60,068 bases of DNA, taken from positions 1-60,068 of IMG/VR virus record IMGVR_UViG_3300015371_000037; one strand, 5' to 3'. The position numbers were made by a program, and so were the translations under genes. Positions 23,967-45,096 of this stretch are shown here, in pieces. Position 1 is the stretch's first letter. Every line of letters starts with the position of its first letter. The DNA comes from a virus. Under the pieces are notes generated by a model, which saw only the letters and a program-made list of their open reading frames with translations, did no database searches and was not told the DNA's origin.

Positions 23967-24002
23967 GCGGCACCTGCGGTTCCTTCCTGACGCAGGTGCC
24001 GC
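23967..24002 (+). terminator. Terminator ending the lysis cassette
   Basis: GCGGCACCTGCG (23967-23978) and CGCAGGTGCCGC (23991-24002) pair perfectly over 12 bp with a 12-base loop. No T-tract follows. It marks the end of the late operon before the small genes at 24060. Confidence 0.75.
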
Positions 24003-25483: not shown

Positions 25484-25504
25484 ATTGGGGCGTTGGGCCC
25501 CAAT
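25484..25504 (+). repeat. ATTGGGGC hairpin, copy 1
   Basis: ATTGGGGC (25484-25491) and GCCCCAAT (25497-25504) form an eight-bp stem with loop GTTGG. It ends 20 bases before the next start codon, so it is a leader element rather than a terminator of an upstream gene. Identical stems recur at 26192 and 27301. Confidence 0.7.
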
Positions 25505-26191: not shown

Positions 26192-26212
26192 ATTGGGGCC
26201 CAAAGCCCCAAT
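26192..26212 (+). repeat. ATTGGGGC hairpin, copy 2
   Basis: ATTGGGGC (26192-26199), loop CCAAA, GCCCCAAT (26205-26212). It lies six bases after one stop codon and 35 bases before the next start. GCGCTGAC follows the stem, as it also does, a little further on, after copy 3. Confidence 0.7.
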
Positions 26213-26246: not shown

Positions 26247-26651
26247 ATGAACAAGGTCATCAAGGGAATCACGATTGCGATCGTGGTAGGAAGTTGCACC
26301 GTCACCATGGGTGCGGCGAAGGGTTGCGGTGGTTCTGGGAAGGGACCAGCGCGCAGCGCGTCGTACGCCGGAGACGGTGTCACGCAGTTCGGTGATCCGA
26401 ACGGAGCGAAGACGTACGCCAACGAGGGAGCTTCAGGCAAGCTCAAGTGGGGTGTGACGTACAAGGCCGTGGCGATCGACAGCACGGACCGTACGAACTG
26501 CGAGTGGAGGCTGTACACGATCAACTCCGAAGGGGTGACCACCTTCCTCAAGAAGGGTGGTTACCTCACGGCCAAGATCAACTTCGGCGAGCAGAAGACC
26601 AAGAGGGTGTTCCTCAAGTCGCTCGAATGTGGGCTGTGGAAGCCTGCCTGA
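26247..26651 (+). CDS. Small secreted protein
   Basis: ATG 26247 follows AGAGGGAGAAG. The 134-residue product has a basic start and hydrophobic core (MNKVIKGITIAIVVGSCTVTMGAA), a signal peptide, then KGCGGSG. The cysteine could be a poor lipobox, but the residues before it do not fit well. The mature part is beta-like (LKWGVTYKAVAIDSTDRTNCEW) with two more cysteines, so a disulphide is possible outside the cell. Function unknown; it neighbours a secreted protease. Confidence 0.7.
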   Translation: MNKVIKGITIAIVVGSCTVTMGAAKGCGGSGKGPARSASYAGDGVTQFGDPNGAKTYANEGASGKLKWGVTYKAVAIDSTDRTNCEWRLYTINSEGVTTFLKKGGYLTAKINFGEQKTKRVFLKSLECGLWKPA

Positions 26652-26730: not shown

Positions 26731-27300
26731 ATGAAGAAGATCCTGGGGCTGCTTGCCGTGGGCGTAACGGCTGCTGTCATGGCCGTTGCTGGCCCGACCC
26801 AAGCAGAGGCGTACAGCGGGCAGTCCGGCTGGGGAGAATGGCTCATACCCACCGGAACGATCTGCCTGGAGACGCAGGGCACCGCCGTCCTCGCCGGTGT
26901 CGCAGCAGACTGGAACAAGAGCGATGCCGTCATCGTCGGTAGGACCAAGTGCACCGGCTTCGCCCGGAACATGACGGTCAAGTACGTTGGCGTCAACAAG
27001 CCGACGAACCCAGCCTGTGCTTGGGCCTACTCCGACGACGGTTGGACACGACGGAACGTGCGTGGTCTGTCGATCCTGACTCCGAATGCTCCGACCGTGT
27101 ACATCAACTACGGCGCCAGCAAGTCAGGGTGCCGTGGTAACGCTCTGATGGTCAAGCACGTCTATGAGCACGAGTTCGGCCACATCCTTGGCCTCGCTCA
27201 CAACAACGAGCCGTCCGTGATGGCGCAGGGTGCGCCGTATGGATGGGCATACAACGCGCCGACGAAGCTCGATATCTGGCGAGTCGGCTACCGCTACTGA
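26731..27300 (+). CDS. Secreted metzincin-type zinc metalloprotease
   Basis: The 189-residue product has a clear Sec signal peptide (MKKILGLLAVGVTAAVMAVAG ... AEA), then a mature domain with HEFGHILGLAH at residues 147-157, the extended HExxHxxGxxH zinc motif, and a Met-turn SVMAQ (Met164). Three or four cysteines suggest disulphides. Such matrixin/astacin-like enzymes are rare in phages. It would act outside the cytoplasm on host envelope or environmental proteins. RBS AAAGGAGGAAGG is strong. A catalytically dead paralogue is at 32535. Confidence 0.85.
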   Translation: MKKILGLLAVGVTAAVMAVAGPTQAEAYSGQSGWGEWLIPTGTICLETQGTAVLAGVAADWNKSDAVIVGRTKCTGFARNMTVKYVGVNKPTNPACAWAYSDDGWTRRNVRGLSILTPNAPTVYINYGASKSGCRGNALMVKHVYEHEFGHILGLAHNNEPSVMAQGAPYGWAYNAPTKLDIWRVGYRY

Positions 27301-27320
27301 ATTGGGGCCCAAAGCCCCAA
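27301..27320 (+). repeat. ATTGGGGC hairpin, copy 3
   Basis: ATTGGGGC (27301-27308), loop CCAAA, GCCCCAA (27314-27320): seven pairs, with the eighth position A-A. It starts directly at the protease stop codon and ends 44 bases before the next ATG. It may serve as terminator, leader element or both. Confidence 0.65.
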
Positions 27321-28526: not shown

Positions 28527-29166
28527 CTGCGGAGGAACGCACGAGACCATCTCTGAGTACCGGTCTTGTGCCGGTGCTCGGCAGGAGGCCCAGACGGCGG
28601 TATCGGTGATGGACAACCTCACCGGCGCACCGTCCACGATCAACCCGCCGTCCGACGCGCAGGTCAAGTTCGCCCTGGACCTCCTGTCACAGAAGGTCTG
28701 GCCGGACAAGATCACGGAGGACGATCTGCGAGGGATGGAGCGCAGGCAGGTCTCCTCCCTCATCAACGGTCTCAAGGCACAACCGGGAAAGAATGGGGCC
28801 GAAAGCCCCAATTCGGCGAAGGATGCCTGGCCGGAGATCATCGAGAGTCGCTATGCGCTCTGCGTCGACAAGGAGCAGGACGTGTGGCGCTTCTATGAGG
28901 TCAACAAGCCGACTCGTGGCAAGTGGGTCGGCTACACCTTCGTGGTCCAGCTGATTGGCTCGCCTGGCGACTACCGGAAGCAGCGTCTGGGCCAGAAGGT
29001 CGCTGTCAACATCCTCAAGGACATCATGAAGGTCGGAGTGGAGCAGGCCGTGTCCGACTTCGGGCTCAAGAGCGAGACGTGCGGGATCTGTCACAGCCCG
29101 TTGTCCAACGACGAATCGATCAAACGCGGCATCGGCCCGCATTGCGCAGCGAAGCTCGGGTGGTGA
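28501..29166 (+). CDS. Zinc-finger protein, DUF6011-like C-terminus
   Basis: The 221-residue product opens with a CxxC...C pattern (HAKCGSCGGTHETISEYRSC) and closes with CGICHSPLSNDESIKRGIGPHC, a second zinc site of the type seen in phage DUF6011 proteins. The middle is alpha/beta (YALCVDKEQDVWRFYEVN). ATG 28507 is an alternative start. A degenerate copy of the ATTGGGGC hairpin (28791-28814) lies inside the gene, encoding NGAESPNS. Function unknown; nucleic-acid contact is likely. Confidence 0.75.
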   Translation: MVMHAKCGSCGGTHETISEYRSCAGARQEAQTAVSVMDNLTGAPSTINPPSDAQVKFALDLLSQKVWPDKITEDDLRGMERRQVSSLINGLKAQPGKNGAESPNSAKDAWPEIIESRYALCVDKEQDVWRFYEVNKPTRGKWVGYTFVVQLIGSPGDYRKQRLGQKVAVNILKDIMKVGVEQAVSDFGLKSETCGICHSPLSNDESIKRGIGPHCAAKLGW

Positions 29167-29399
29167 CCGTGTACGACTATCACGAGGAATTGGGGCCCAA
29201 GGCTACGATGGATGAGTCCCATCGTGAATGGCATCGGAATTCCGGCGTGCCGATGGGCGTGCCGGGATGCCCGCAGGATGCCTGCCATGTGATGGATGAC
29301 GACGGCTGCCCCTGGTGCGGCGAGCCGGTCATGATGTTGGAGCTTGAGGCTCATGTAGAAGAGTGCGCTGTGGCGCGGAAGGAGTTGGGGTTGTCATGA
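29163..29399 (+). CDS. Small zinc-finger protein
   Basis: GTG 29163 overlaps the preceding stop (GTGA); GTG 29169 is the alternative. The 78-residue product has CPWCGEPVMMLELEAHVEEC near its end, a C2HC-like zinc site. Bases 29187-29202 match the left half and loop of the ATTGGGGC hairpin, with the right arm missing. Function unknown. Confidence 0.6.
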   Translation: MTVYDYHEELGPKATMDESHREWHRNSGVPMGVPGCPQDACHVMDDDGCPWCGEPVMMLELEAHVEECAVARKELGLS

Positions 29400-32458: not shown

Positions 32459-32491
32459 CCACCCATGCCGATCTCCCTCCGGCGTGGGTGG
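32459..32491 (+). terminator. Terminator after the SNF2 gene
   Basis: CCACCCATGCCG (32459-32470) pairs with CGGCGTGGGTGG (32480-32491) over 12 positions including one wobble, with a nine-base loop, followed by TTCT. It separates the helicase gene from the pseudo-metzincin gene. Confidence 0.75.
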
Positions 32492-32534: not shown

Positions 32535-33275
32535 ATGGGCAAGCGTTTTGGGGTGGTGTTCGTTCTGCTGCTGGCCCTGCTGGGACTCGGCACGCAGACG
32601 GCCAACGCTTCGTGGGATTGGGGCCGGACCGCTCCGGCTGCCACGCAGTCGTGGGACTGGGGCAAGTCGGCTTCGGATGCCGACAAGATCCCGTGCGACA
32701 AGACGGCGAAGATGTGCAAGACCGGCTACAAGGCGAACGGACTCGACACGGTCGTGCCGAACTCGCTCGCCTCGCCGGATGCCGTTGACACGGCGGGCAA
32801 CGGCTTCGCCATGGGAGTCTTGCCGAACTACTGGACGCTGTGCGTAGCCAACGGCTATGGGCCGACAGTCGGCGGTCCGGTGCTCAGCTGGAACTACCCA
32901 GGGCGTGCGCTCACGATCAGCCTGCGCAACGTCTGTACCGGGTACAGCATCACCAATCGGATGACGATCGACAACGTCAACAACGCTGGTGCTTGCATCC
33001 AGTACAGCAACCTGGGCAACATGGGCTTGCAGCAGCACTGGGGTCCGTACTACTACATCTGGAACCAGAACCCTGTGATCTGGGTCAACACACGTTCCGG
33101 GTGTAACAACGCCGGTGGACAGTTGGTCCACAATGCGGCGAAGGGCGTGGGGTACATCCTGGGACTCGCATACAGTACATGCAACGATTGCGTGATGGGA
33201 CCGGACAACAACCTGGTGCCCGGCGCAACCAACGGCGACTCCCTGGACGCCAACACGATCTACCAGATGCCGTAG
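32535..33275 (+). CDS. Secreted pseudo-metzincin (inactive paralogue of 26731)
   Basis: ATG 32535 follows GGGAGGTG. The 246-residue product has a signal peptide (MGKRFGVVFVLLLALLGLGTQTANA), two WDWG units, and a domain alignable with the protease at 26731: TLC for TIC, CTGYSITNRMTID for CTGFARNMTVK, VIWVNTRSGC for VYINYGASKSGC, and KGVGYILGLAY (residues 203-213) for HEFGHILGLAH. All three zinc His and the catalytic Glu are replaced, while the ILGLA core and Met-turn VM remain. It sits between two strong terminators, like a moron. Role could be binding, decoy or inhibition. Confidence 0.75.
   Translation: MGKRFGVVFVLLLALLGLGTQTANASWDWGRTAPAATQSWDWGKSASDADKIPCDKTAKMCKTGYKANGLDTVVPNSLASPDAVDTAGNGFAMGVLPNYWTLCVANGYGPTVGGPVLSWNYPGRALTISLRNVCTGYSITNRMTIDNVNNAGACIQYSNLGNMGLQQHWGPYYYIWNQNPVIWVNTRSGCNNAGGQLVHNAAKGVGYILGLAYSTCNDCVMGPDNNLVPGATNGDSLDANTIYQMP
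33064..33083 (+). repeat. 20-base direct repeat, left copy
   Basis: ACCAGAACCCTGTGATCTGG occurs here and again exactly at 33400-33419. Both are in coding frame and encode QNPVIW, here in the pseudo-metzincin domain and there in the N-terminus of the Ltp-like protein. The shared stretch extends imperfectly on the right. Confidence 0.8.
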
Positions 33276-33315: not shown

Positions 33316-33349
33316 GTGCCGGTCTCCTCTGTCCCGGGGAGACCGGCAC
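33316..33349 (+). terminator. Terminator after the pseudo-metzincin gene
   Basis: GTGCCGGTCTCC (33316-33327) and GGAGACCGGCAC (33338-33349) pair perfectly over 12 bp with a ten-base loop. It is one of the strongest hairpins in the window. Confidence 0.75.
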
Positions 33350-33371: not shown

Positions 33372-34076
33372 ATGTCCAACAACGAACACCAGCGCTGGGA
33401 CCAGAACCCTGTGATCTGGCAGAACACGCATCCATCCGGCCCGCAGCAGGAGCCGTGGGTGCCACCGACTCGTCCGCAGGACGGCTTCCACTGGAACGCG
33501 CAGACCGGTCAGTGGGACCCCAACAAGCCACCAAAGAAGAAGATGAGCAAGGGTGCGAAGATCGGCTGGTTCATCTTCGGCGGTGCCGGTCTGCTCATCG
33601 TCGCAGCAGCGCTGGGTCCGAACGCGAGCGACACCGGCACGACCAGCAACCCGTCTTCCGTCCCCACGGTCGTGGACAACGGGCCAACGCCGGACCCGGT
33701 CACCACACCCACCAACAAGCCCACTCCGGTTGAGCCGACGAAGCCGGTTGAGCCTGCAAAGCCCAACCTGACCAAGAGCCAGGAGCAGGCCATCGGTTCG
33801 GCCCAGGACTACCTGCAGCTCAAGGGATTCAGCCGGTTGGGCCTGATCCAGCAGCTGTCGTCGGAGTACGGCGAAGGCTTCTCGAAGGCTGACGCCATCT
33901 TCGCCGTCGATCACATCGACGTGGACTGGAACGAGCAGGCTGTGCGTGCGGCCAAGTCCTACCTGGAGTTGAAGCACTTCTCTCGGGCCGGTCTCATCCA
34001 GCAGCTTGAGTCTCCGTACGGCGACCAGTTCACCCACGCCCAGGCCGTGTACGGCGTCAGCAAGTCCGGTCTGTAG
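33372..34076 (+). CDS. Membrane-anchored Ltp-like protein (superinfection exclusion candidate)
   Basis: The 234-residue product has a Trp-rich N-terminus (WDQNPVIWQN ... GFHWNAQTGQWDP), one membrane helix (about 65-83), a Pro/Thr-rich spacer, and two tandem copies of an approximately 48-residue module: AQDYLQLKGFSRLGLIQQL and AKSYLELKHFSRAGLIQQL, each ending in a FS/FT..A..AV segment. This matches the host cell surface-exposed lipoprotein repeat (Ltp). Ltp of phage TP-J34 blocks DNA injection by a second phage. Here the anchor is a membrane helix rather than a lipid. Confidence 0.75.
   Translation: MSNNEHQRWDQNPVIWQNTHPSGPQQEPWVPPTRPQDGFHWNAQTGQWDPNKPPKKKMSKGAKIGWFIFGGAGLLIVAAALGPNASDTGTTSNPSSVPTVVDNGPTPDPVTTPTNKPTPVEPTKPVEPAKPNLTKSQEQAIGSAQDYLQLKGFSRLGLIQQLSSEYGEGFSKADAIFAVDHIDVDWNEQAVRAAKSYLELKHFSRAGLIQQLESPYGDQFTHAQAVYGVSKSGL
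33400..33419 (+). repeat. 20-base direct repeat, right copy
   Basis: Exact second copy of the sequence at 33064-33083, 336 bases downstream and in the same codon phase (QNPVIW). The sharing between two secreted/anchored proteins suggests local duplication or recombination. Confidence 0.8.
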
Positions 34077-34078
34077 CC

Positions 34079-34348
34079 ATGCTTGTTGTGCTGGTCGGCA
34101 TTGCCGGCTTCATCACAGGGGTGGGTGCAACGATCTACGTCCAGCGTCGTCTGGCACAACCATGGGTACGTGTCACCTCTGCCCCACGGAAGCAAGGCAA
34201 GCTTCCGCCCAACGTCAAACGAGGCAATCGGCCGGACACCTACCGGACCATTGGGCGACCTCGCAACATGGACGAAACACCTTCGGTGATCCGTCAAGCC
34301 CTGTTCACCCGCAGGACCATCAGGAAGCTCGGTGATGAAGATGATTGA
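34079..34348 (+). CDS. Small membrane protein, 89 residues
   Basis: ATG 34079 is two bases after the Ltp-like stop. The product has an N-terminal membrane helix (MLVVLVGIAGFITGVGATIYV) and a basic cytoplasmic tail with YRTIGRPRNMDETP. It overlaps the next gene by 14 bases. It is probably co-expressed with the Ltp-like protein. Function unknown. Confidence 0.65.
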   Translation: MLVVLVGIAGFITGVGATIYVQRRLAQPWVRVTSAPRKQGKLPPNVKRGNRPDTYRTIGRPRNMDETPSVIRQALFTRRTIRKLGDEDD

Positions 34349-34820
34349 GGTCAAGCGGAAGCGCCATCACCACTTGGCGTTGTTCCCGTTGATGATCATG
34401 CTCGGAGTCGGCTTGGCCATTTGGCTGGCGCCACCGCAGGAGTATGATGTCACTCCGGCGATCCGGCCACCGGTAGCCGAAGCAGGCGCAGCCGTCCCTA
34501 CAACCATTGTCTCCGTGGCCCAGGGCCAGCCCGTAGGCGATGAGGCGTACTTCGAGGGGTTCCGCCTCAACACCGGCTGGCACTTGGCTCAAACGGCCAC
34601 CTATGGCCGGTACGACCTTGATGCGACCGTCACCAACGTATCGGATTCTCCCGATATTGCAAGAGTGCTCGTCACGATCCGTGTCGGAGAGCGGAACGTG
34701 GAGATGCTGATGTGCCGGGTAAGTCTGTCGGCCGGAGAGACCGGCATCCTGATGTGCGCAGACACGCACCACGCCGACTACAGTCCGCGATGGTCCCGAG
34801 TGACGCTCAGCGCATCGTAA
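34335..34820 (+). CDS. Membrane-anchored exported protein, 161 residues
   Basis: ATG 34335 (or 34341) follows AGGAAG. The product has a basic His-rich start (KRKRHHH), one hydrophobic helix (LALFPLMIMLGVGLAIWLAP), a Pro/Ala spacer and a beta-like outer domain with two cysteines (MLMCRV and GILMCADT), probably disulphide bonded. It forms, with the two preceding genes, a group of three surface-exposed membrane proteins. Confidence 0.7.
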   Translation: MKMIEVKRKRHHHLALFPLMIMLGVGLAIWLAPPQEYDVTPAIRPPVAEAGAAVPTTIVSVAQGQPVGDEAYFEGFRLNTGWHLAQTATYGRYDLDATVTNVSDSPDIARVLVTIRVGERNVEMLMCRVSLSAGETGILMCADTHHADYSPRWSRVTLSAS

Positions 34821-43653: not shown

Positions 43654-44321
43654 GCATCAAGGATGAGGAACCCGACTGGGCACCCGGCTCGGTCGCTGCG
43701 CAGAAGGGGCAACACATGGACGGCACGAATCACATCGACCCCGGCGACCCGCCGTTGGACCGGTATGTGGCTCAGGAAGCCGATGCCGGAGATCCAGGTG
43801 CATGGTTCTCCATCGAGTCCAATGACGGCAAGCGCTACAAGCCGGATCAGATCGGCGTGAAAACCATCGGTAAGAATGGACGGTTGTATGAGTCCTTTGA
43901 GTTCGATGGCCACTACATGTGGCGCCTAGCTCCGGGTATGCCGGCATACGAAGGACCGAACTACCACGCCGATGACGGCGTCAAGGAAGACGGCACCCAG
44001 ATGTTCTGGATCAACCTGGGCGTGCCTGCTGAGCTCGTTCCTCCACATACGCAGGAGATCCTGCGCACGGTCGTGGTTGACGCGCTGGCGCTCTGGGTCC
44101 GGCGCAACGTGGAGTACGGCGACGAAGCGAAGGAGCTTGGCGCCAAAGGCCAGTATGCGGACATCAACAGGAAGGTCCGCAAGCTCAAGCGTCTGCTCTG
44201 GGACGAGGATGTCCCGGCGTGGGCGATCTCGGAGGATGTTGAGCAGGTTGTGATGGATCTCATCGGCCACAGCATCCTCACCATCGATCTACTCAGGAAG
44301 GGGAACAAGCATGGCAATTGA
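43650..44321 (+). CDS. DUF1599/MazG-like protein
   Basis: The 223-residue product has a polar N-terminal 130 residues and a helical C-terminal 90 residues: ALALWVRRNVEYGDEAKELGAKGQYADINRKVRKLKRLLW ... VEQVVMDLIGHSILTIDLL. The pattern YGDEA, K/R-rich helix and D-x-x-G resembles nucleotide-modification-associated DUF1599 or MazG-like all-alpha NTP-pyrophosphohydrolase folds. It is likely nucleotide-related. It overlaps the HAD gene by four bases and the SDR gene by 11. Confidence 0.6.
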   Translation: MSIKDEEPDWAPGSVAAQKGQHMDGTNHIDPGDPPLDRYVAQEADAGDPGAWFSIESNDGKRYKPDQIGVKTIGKNGRLYESFEFDGHYMWRLAPGMPAYEGPNYHADDGVKEDGTQMFWINLGVPAELVPPHTQEILRTVVVDALALWVRRNVEYGDEAKELGAKGQYADINRKVRKLKRLLWDEDVPAWAISEDVEQVVMDLIGHSILTIDLLRKGNKHGN

Positions 44322-45096
44322 TCCTGGAGTGGTCGGCCCGCAGGATTTGGAGCTCAAGCGTCCGTTGTGGGTGATCGGCGCGAGCGACTACAACCTGGGC
44401 GCTGCTGTTGCATACAACGCAACGATGACCGGCAACTACAAGTCCGGCTGGATCGTGCAGACTGACGAAGCCTCGTGTGACGTGTGCGCGCCGGACTCCC
44501 TGGACTCGAAGTTGGACGAGATCATTGCGCTCGCGCCGGAGACCGGTGTGGACGTCGTGTACGCTGCCGGTCTGAACCTTCTCAACCCGTGTCGTGACAC
44601 GGAGGAGACGGACCTGTTTGACACGTTCAACGTCAACGTGATGGGATTCATCCGGCTCATGCGCGCGATCGCTCGCCGGTTCCCCAGGCAAGAGCACAGC
44701 ATCTACAGGCAGCTGGAGAACCAGAGCCGGGTGAACGTCGTCGCCGTGGCTAGCGATGCCGCTCGTGTGGCGATGCGGAACTCCATCACCTACTGTGCGT
44801 CCAAGGCTGCTCTGGTCCAGGCGGTGCGCGTAGCGGCCAGGGAGCTTGCGCCGTACGTGCGTGTCAACGCCGTCTCTCCGGCGATCATCGAGGGTACGCC
44901 GATGACCACGGCTATCGACGCTGAGGTCAGGCTCCAACGCAACTGGACGGAGGAGCAGGCACGGTCCTATGAGAAGTCTCTCATTCCCATGGGCCGCCGT
45001 GCGGAGAAGTACGAAGTGAGCAAGGTCATATTGCAGGCTCTGGAAGGTCCTGTATTCATGACCGGATCGAACATCGAGATCACAGGAGGCAAGTGA
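44311..45096 (+). CDS. Short-chain dehydrogenase/reductase
   Basis: The 261-residue product has a divergent glycine-rich start (WVIGASDYNLGAAVAYN), the NVNVMG segment, catalytic Ser near 147 (VASDAA), YxxxK as YCASK (Tyr about 161, Lys about 165), NAVSPAIIEGTPM and the C-terminal FMTGSNIEITGGK, all hallmarks of classical SDR enzymes. The usual TGxxxGxG is changed to GASDYNLG. It is an NAD(P)-dependent oxidoreductase; substrate unknown. It is coupled to both neighbours. Confidence 0.85.
   Translation: MAIDPGVVGPQDLELKRPLWVIGASDYNLGAAVAYNATMTGNYKSGWIVQTDEASCDVCAPDSLDSKLDEIIALAPETGVDVVYAAGLNLLNPCRDTEETDLFDTFNVNVMGFIRLMRAIARRFPRQEHSIYRQLENQSRVNVVAVASDAARVAMRNSITYCASKAALVQAVRVAARELAPYVRVNAVSPAIIEGTPMTTAIDAEVRLQRNWTEEQARSYEKSLIPMGRRAEKYEVSKVILQALEGPVFMTGSNIEITGGK

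Follow-up and report, generated by a model that had tools for sequence, protein, structure and literature searches.

The question raised by this locus is whether a phage gene encodes a relative of secreted proteases which has lost its active site, and what such a protein might do. The window, meaning the whole stretch of DNA that was analysed, is a 60,068-base IMG/VR virus record. It encodes a large terminase with 51% identity to the one from Gordonia phage Lambo and a helicase resembling helicases of Streptomyces, Mycobacterium and Gordonia phages, and genes for a tape measure protein, a portal protein, an endolysin and a holin-like protein are also present. Judged by its gene content the virus is a tailed phage of actinobacteria. 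Among the proteins scanned, which represented part of the genes, neither an integrase nor a repressor was found. The window also carries a gene for a FabG-like reductase domain (44311-45096, PHROG 3142), and a gene of the same name is annotated in Lambo. The gene under study is referred to below as P2 and the predicted protease of the same phage as P1 (Table 1).

Table 1. Features of the P1 and P2 regions, in window positions.
Feature	Position	Strand	Description
Small exported lipoprotein-like protein	26247..26651	+	134 residues; VGSC lipobox-like; directly upstream of P1
P1, exported matrixin-like protease (predicted from sequence)	26731..27300	+	Intact HEFGHILGLAH (27169-27201); Met-turn SVM
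Hairpin	32459..32491	+	12 pairs, one G-U; no T-run; 43 nt upstream of P2 start codon
P2, putative exported pseudo-metzincin	32535..33275	+	246 aa; predicted signal peptide approx. residues 1-25; 8 Cys, 0 Glu, 2 His
P2 predicted signal peptide (MGKRFGVVFVLLLALLGLGTQTANA)	32535..32609	+	From translation; strong hydrophobic core
P2 N-terminal short repeat, SWDWG ... SWDWG	32610..32663	+	Within extension missing from P1
P2 strand WNQNPVIWVNT	33059..33091	+	Family equivalent IWLN; upstream copy of 33-bp direct repeat
P2 degenerate zinc-helix motif KGVGYILGLAY	33141..33173	+	Residues 203-213; replaces HExxHxxGxxH
P2 Met-turn CVM, kept	33189..33197	+	Residues 219-221; Met at +8 from third ligand position
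Hairpin	33316..33349	+	14 pairs; dG -30 kcal/mol; no T-run; 22 nt upstream of Ltp-type start codon
Ltp-type superinfection-exclusion protein (predicted), membrane-anchored	33372..34076	+	Two PF07553 repeats; directly downstream of P2
33-bp direct repeat, downstream copy (WDQNPVIWQNT)	33395..33427	+	N-terminus of Ltp-type ORF
Small membrane protein	34079..34348	+	Same block as P2
Small membrane-anchored protein	34335..34820	+	Same block as P2

The P2 reading frame is intact and P2 appears to be a normal gene, since its GC3 of 0.84 is the same as that of the neighbouring genes and it has a strong ribosome-binding site (AAAGGGAGGTG). Queries of Pfam, PHROGs, NCBIfam and PADLOC with P2 gave no match, and a PDB sequence search returned a single, meaningless one. 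Neither tblastn searches of phages nor scans of viral and genome collections with sequence patterns found a second P2-like sequence.

P1 matched Pfam family PF00413 with an E-value of 5.9e-5 and 23.4 bits, slightly below the cut-off of 24. Local alignment of P1 with P2 spanned the whole mature domain and gave a raw score of 68 (z 5.4-5.5), which was reached by 4 of 2000 composition shuffles in one run and 1 of 2000 in another, and the two proteins were reciprocal best matches among the window ORFs of at least 60 residues (n=550). As the pair had been picked in an earlier, sequence-only reading for its likeness, these values somewhat overstate the significance and independent relatives were therefore sought. 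All four mature Cys residues of P1 (45, 74, 96 and 134) pair with Cys 103, 134, 154 and 190 of P2, the other four of the even number in P2 having no P1 partner. Residues 147-157 of P1 (HEFGHILGLAH) pair gap-free with residues 203-213 of P2, and the Met-turn Met is present in both proteins (Met164 at +7 from the third ligand in P1, Met221 at +8 in P2). The register holds at each of the four P1 cysteines, along the IWxN strand and the zinc helix, and at the Met-turn, and the glycine, ILGLA and the Met-turn Met are retained in P2. The alignment which the sequence-only reading had proposed on the basis of conserved Cys, strands and ILGLA was borne out, as was the change of HEFGH...H to KGVGY...Y, by which three zinc ligands and the general-base Glu are gone. 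Retention of the Met-turn had not been mentioned there.

Whole-genome searches revealed in Actinomycetota a secreted family of approximately 200 residues with HExxHxxGxxH and a Met-turn, to which P1 is clearly related (z 9.8 with member L020 and 10.0 with member L070). P2 aligned over the full domain with L070, a chromosomal active member (HELGHAAGLSH), with z 4.7 (6 of 5000 shuffles), and with z 6.5 (0 of 5000) when another gap penalty was used; the matched segments were TLCV/TVCV, CTGY/CSGY, VIWVN/MIWLN, ILGLAYS/AAGLSHT and CVMGP/SVMDP. A profile was built from 26 relatives, P1 excluded, and its four catalytic columns were masked; against it P2 scored 13.1 bits, a value that none of 3000 shuffles equalled, and ranked second of the 550 window ORFs behind P1. 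Eleven other P1-free variants were weaker (3, 4, 4, 9, 17, 27, 34, 62, 73, 135 and 419 of 3000 shuffles equalled P2), and comparison of P2 with L083 or L084 singly was at chance level with the register unchanged. In every profile alignment printed the register at the zinc helix and Met-turn was identical. We consider it very probable, on sequence evidence which is moderate and consistent rather than overwhelming, that P2 is homologous to the matrixin-like proteases.

Matrixins with intact zinc sites were also found in seven other viral records, one of which (L056, 105 kb) carries a member of the same family as P1. No P2-like protein was found in these seven records, where a relative as diverged as P2 could escape detection. 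In many actinobacterial matrixin-like members (L030-L036, L038, L041, L042, L068, L069) QE replaces HE, so that the first zinc His is Gln with the remaining motif intact. L070 lies approximately 6 kb from phage endolysin-like and tail-protein-like genes (L080:8172-8762, L080:12828-17974), and this chromosomal gene may therefore itself sit on or near a prophage.

An active metzincin (M10) carries an HExxHxxGxxH/D zinc site with the catalytic Glu, and this site is missing from P2. As there is no Glu in 246 residues, the only His residues are His168 and His199, and the motif reads KGVGYILGLAY, P2 is not a metzincin protease, and from the predicted product metzincin catalysis is excluded with certainty. 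Residues at shifted positions could not restore metzincin zinc binding, since Glu is lacking and only two His are present. His199 (LVHN) is placed as first ligand by a gapped alignment with L070; the gap-free P1 alignment pairs it with His143, a non-ligand. Relatedness beyond the motif and a Met-turn after the zinc helix, which together mark a pseudo-metzincin, are supported by the P2 translation.

The Ltp-type ORF downstream of P2 matched Pfam with an E-value of 2.7e-34 and PHROG 4980, annotated as superinfection exclusion, with an E-value of 9e-38. Its repeats follow a transmembrane segment and its relatives were found in 147 phage records, 100 of them from Gordonia. From these matches the gene probably keeps rival phages out. 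An Ltp-like phage gene in Cutibacterium has been implicated in superinfection resistance in pseudolysogeny (PMC11480721), and TP-J34 Ltp targets the tape measure protein, going by the title of Bebeacua 2013 as cited in PMC3952083. Adjacency to the Ltp-type gene is no proof of a common function with P2, in which Pfam detected no PF07553 repeat. The block containing both genes is positioned between the helicase and exonuclease genes, an interval which in Lambo, Benzema, Wentworth and contig L002 is occupied by different small genes, either other or fewer. As its gene content differs among related phages, P2 sits in a variable block of envelope proteins, and the layout supports an accessory envelope block made up of P2, the Ltp-type protein and the two membrane proteins.

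The two copies of the 33-bp direct repeat are 88% identical and their central 20 bp are identical in a row, where none would be expected by chance. NPVIW as a protein motif common to P2 and the Ltp-type protein was set aside, as the copies lie on opposite membrane sides in the predicted topology and the 20 identical bases point to a copy made at the DNA level. Since the stretch is the IWxN strand of the family in P2, the P2 gene was probably the source and the Ltp-type gene the recipient of the copy.

The hairpins on either side of P2 had been read as strong terminators giving the gene an isolated, moron-like layout. They are the only stems of at least 11 pairs in the 60 kb (loop of at most 10, at most one G-U), with 0-2 stems of that size in eight first-order Markov sequences, and the folding of both was very stable and far better than that of shuffles. 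Although the hairpins are real and exceptional, they have no U-tracts and each is located in the leader of the next gene, with a ribosome-binding site in each of the two gaps before the start codons. A sigma-70 consensus scan found no promoter-like site between hairpins and start codons, and the gaps of 43 and 22 nt are too short for a promoter, which makes isolation between terminators doubtful. As full terminators they would leave the next genes with no downstream promoter, and we infer that a role as leader or processing hairpins, or as partial terminators, suits them better. The moron-like layout held in one respect, an extra gene in an interval which differs between related phages, but not in its second, a promoter and terminator of its own. 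A third stem (23967-24002; 12 pairs, loop of 12) was observed 3' of the holin-like gene.

The reading that we prefer, although tentatively, is that P2 is a non-catalytic exported binder which belongs to the accessory envelope block and acts at the surface of the infected cell. The protein would have descended from an actinobacterial secreted matrixin-like protease, disulfide-rich and exported, and after loss of the three zinc ligands and the catalytic Glu would have been kept as a non-catalytic binding protein. It may retain the fold and bind through the former cleft. Its site of action would most likely be the infected cell's surface, and its ligand there either a component of an incoming phage or a protein of the host envelope. 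A more specific proposal, in which the pseudoprotease arose in the phage from a secreted matrixin of host type and acts with the adjoining Ltp-type protein against rival phages at the cell surface, would give P2 a role in exclusion and is in our estimate rather unlikely.

Other explanations concern the identity of P2 itself. It could be an exported protein rich in Cys and unrelated to metzincins, its resemblance to P1 in Cys spacing and ILGLA being fortuitous; four Cys and ILGLA do supply much of the P1/P2 alignment score, some P1-free profiles and single comparisons were at chance level, and AlphaFold, run on two-row alignments of each of P1 and P2, gave pLDDT values of 28 and 30, models too poor to weigh on either side. 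We regard such a coincidence as improbable, given z values of about 5 in two separate comparisons and the same zinc-helix and Met-turn register in every profile alignment printed. Were P2 instead a decaying gene, a once-active protease in the course of being lost, its fast divergence and the failure to find relatives of the same type would be accounted for, but the intact ORF, GC3, strong ribosome-binding site, signal peptide and even Cys number all argue against decay, and eight Cys, including the four common to P1, as well as ILGLA and the Met-turn have been kept although the ligands are gone. Decay is therefore very improbable.

The remaining alternatives accept a pseudo-metzincin and give it a different task. 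P2 might bind P1 or its substrates outside the cell as an inhibitor or decoy and so limit, or protect from, proteolysis. Both proteins have signal peptides, are related and occur in the same phage, a phage-derived metzincin of Listeria cleaves a protein partner (PMC8235301), and pseudopeptidases of other families regulate active relatives (PMC11266112). We nevertheless find regulation of P1 unlikely, and the protease/pseudoprotease pair of the sequence-only reading was not borne out: the two genes are 5.2 kb and seven-odd genes apart, no such pair co-occurred in the seven other matrixin-bearing viral records, and P1 scores 89 with L020 and 76 with L070 versus 68 with P2, so that the two could as well have been acquired separately as have arisen by duplication. 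Should P1 have a partner within this phage, the adjoining lipoprotein-like protein, for which no family match and no phage relative was found, is by position a better candidate than P2. Alternatively, P2 could help in lysis or envelope remodelling rather than exclusion, in the manner of Mtz and Tim of Listeria prophages, which sensitise cells to holin/lysin (PMC8235301), and the lipoprotein-like gene and P1 do start approximately 2.3 kb downstream of the holin-like gene. The Listeria phenotype, however, needs an active protease, whereas P2 is inactive and located in the replication/recombination region away from the lysis genes, and a lysis role is improbable. Around the lipoprotein-like/P1 pair we also observed a palindromic element, TTGGGGCCCAAAGCCCCAA, at 25485-25503, 26193-26211, 27302-27320 and 28793-28811 with a half site at 29190-29199; the copies are mostly intergenic, none would be expected by chance, and they are possibly regulatory.

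By its sequence features P2 makes a credible case for an exported pseudo-metzincin; it is so far an orphan and is encoded next to an exclusion gene in a block of envelope genes. Animal pseudoproteases have been studied extensively, whereas literature searches pointed to no such work on phages and returned no case of a phage-encoded pseudo-metzincin. An active matrixin and a dead relative in one phage would offer a small, testable system for the reuse of a protease fold as a binder, and P2 might extend the known repertoire of competitor exclusion in phages by a new surface factor. If P2 does act with the Ltp-type protein in exclusion, it would represent a new kind of exclusion factor and, among phages, the first pseudo-metzincin.

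Among known systems, the closest are the matrixins/metzincins (PF00413, MEROPS M10), represented here by a small group of secreted actinobacterial proteins (L020, L027, L028, L070) with which P2 shares a signal peptide, a domain of approximately 150 residues, an IWxN strand before the active-site helix, and a zinc helix with a Met-turn after it. P1 is a borderline member of PF00413, whereas P2 differs in lacking the three His ligands and Glu and in having an extra N-terminal region of approximately 75 residues. Listeria prophages pair the secreted metzincin Mtz with the lipoprotein Tim, which Mtz cleaves (PMC8235301), and P1 resembles this system in layout, being a phage-borne secreted metzincin with a small lipoprotein-like neighbour downstream of lysis genes. 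Mtz is an active protease whose effects depend on its activity, while P2 is dead and encoded elsewhere. The Ltp-type exclusion proteins (TP-J34 Ltp, PMC3952083; Gordonia phage Sour gp76) have their likeness in the gene next to P2, and the link of P2 to them is one of neighbourhood. As a metzincin relative without its zinc site, P2 is like the inactive ADAM proteins (PMC11266112) and the snake venom metalloprotease homologues with a substituted zinc site (PMC5086652). These pseudopeptidases come from animals, unlike P2, and function, or are believed to function, as binding modules; in P2, too, the shell of a protease may have been put to use as a binding protein.
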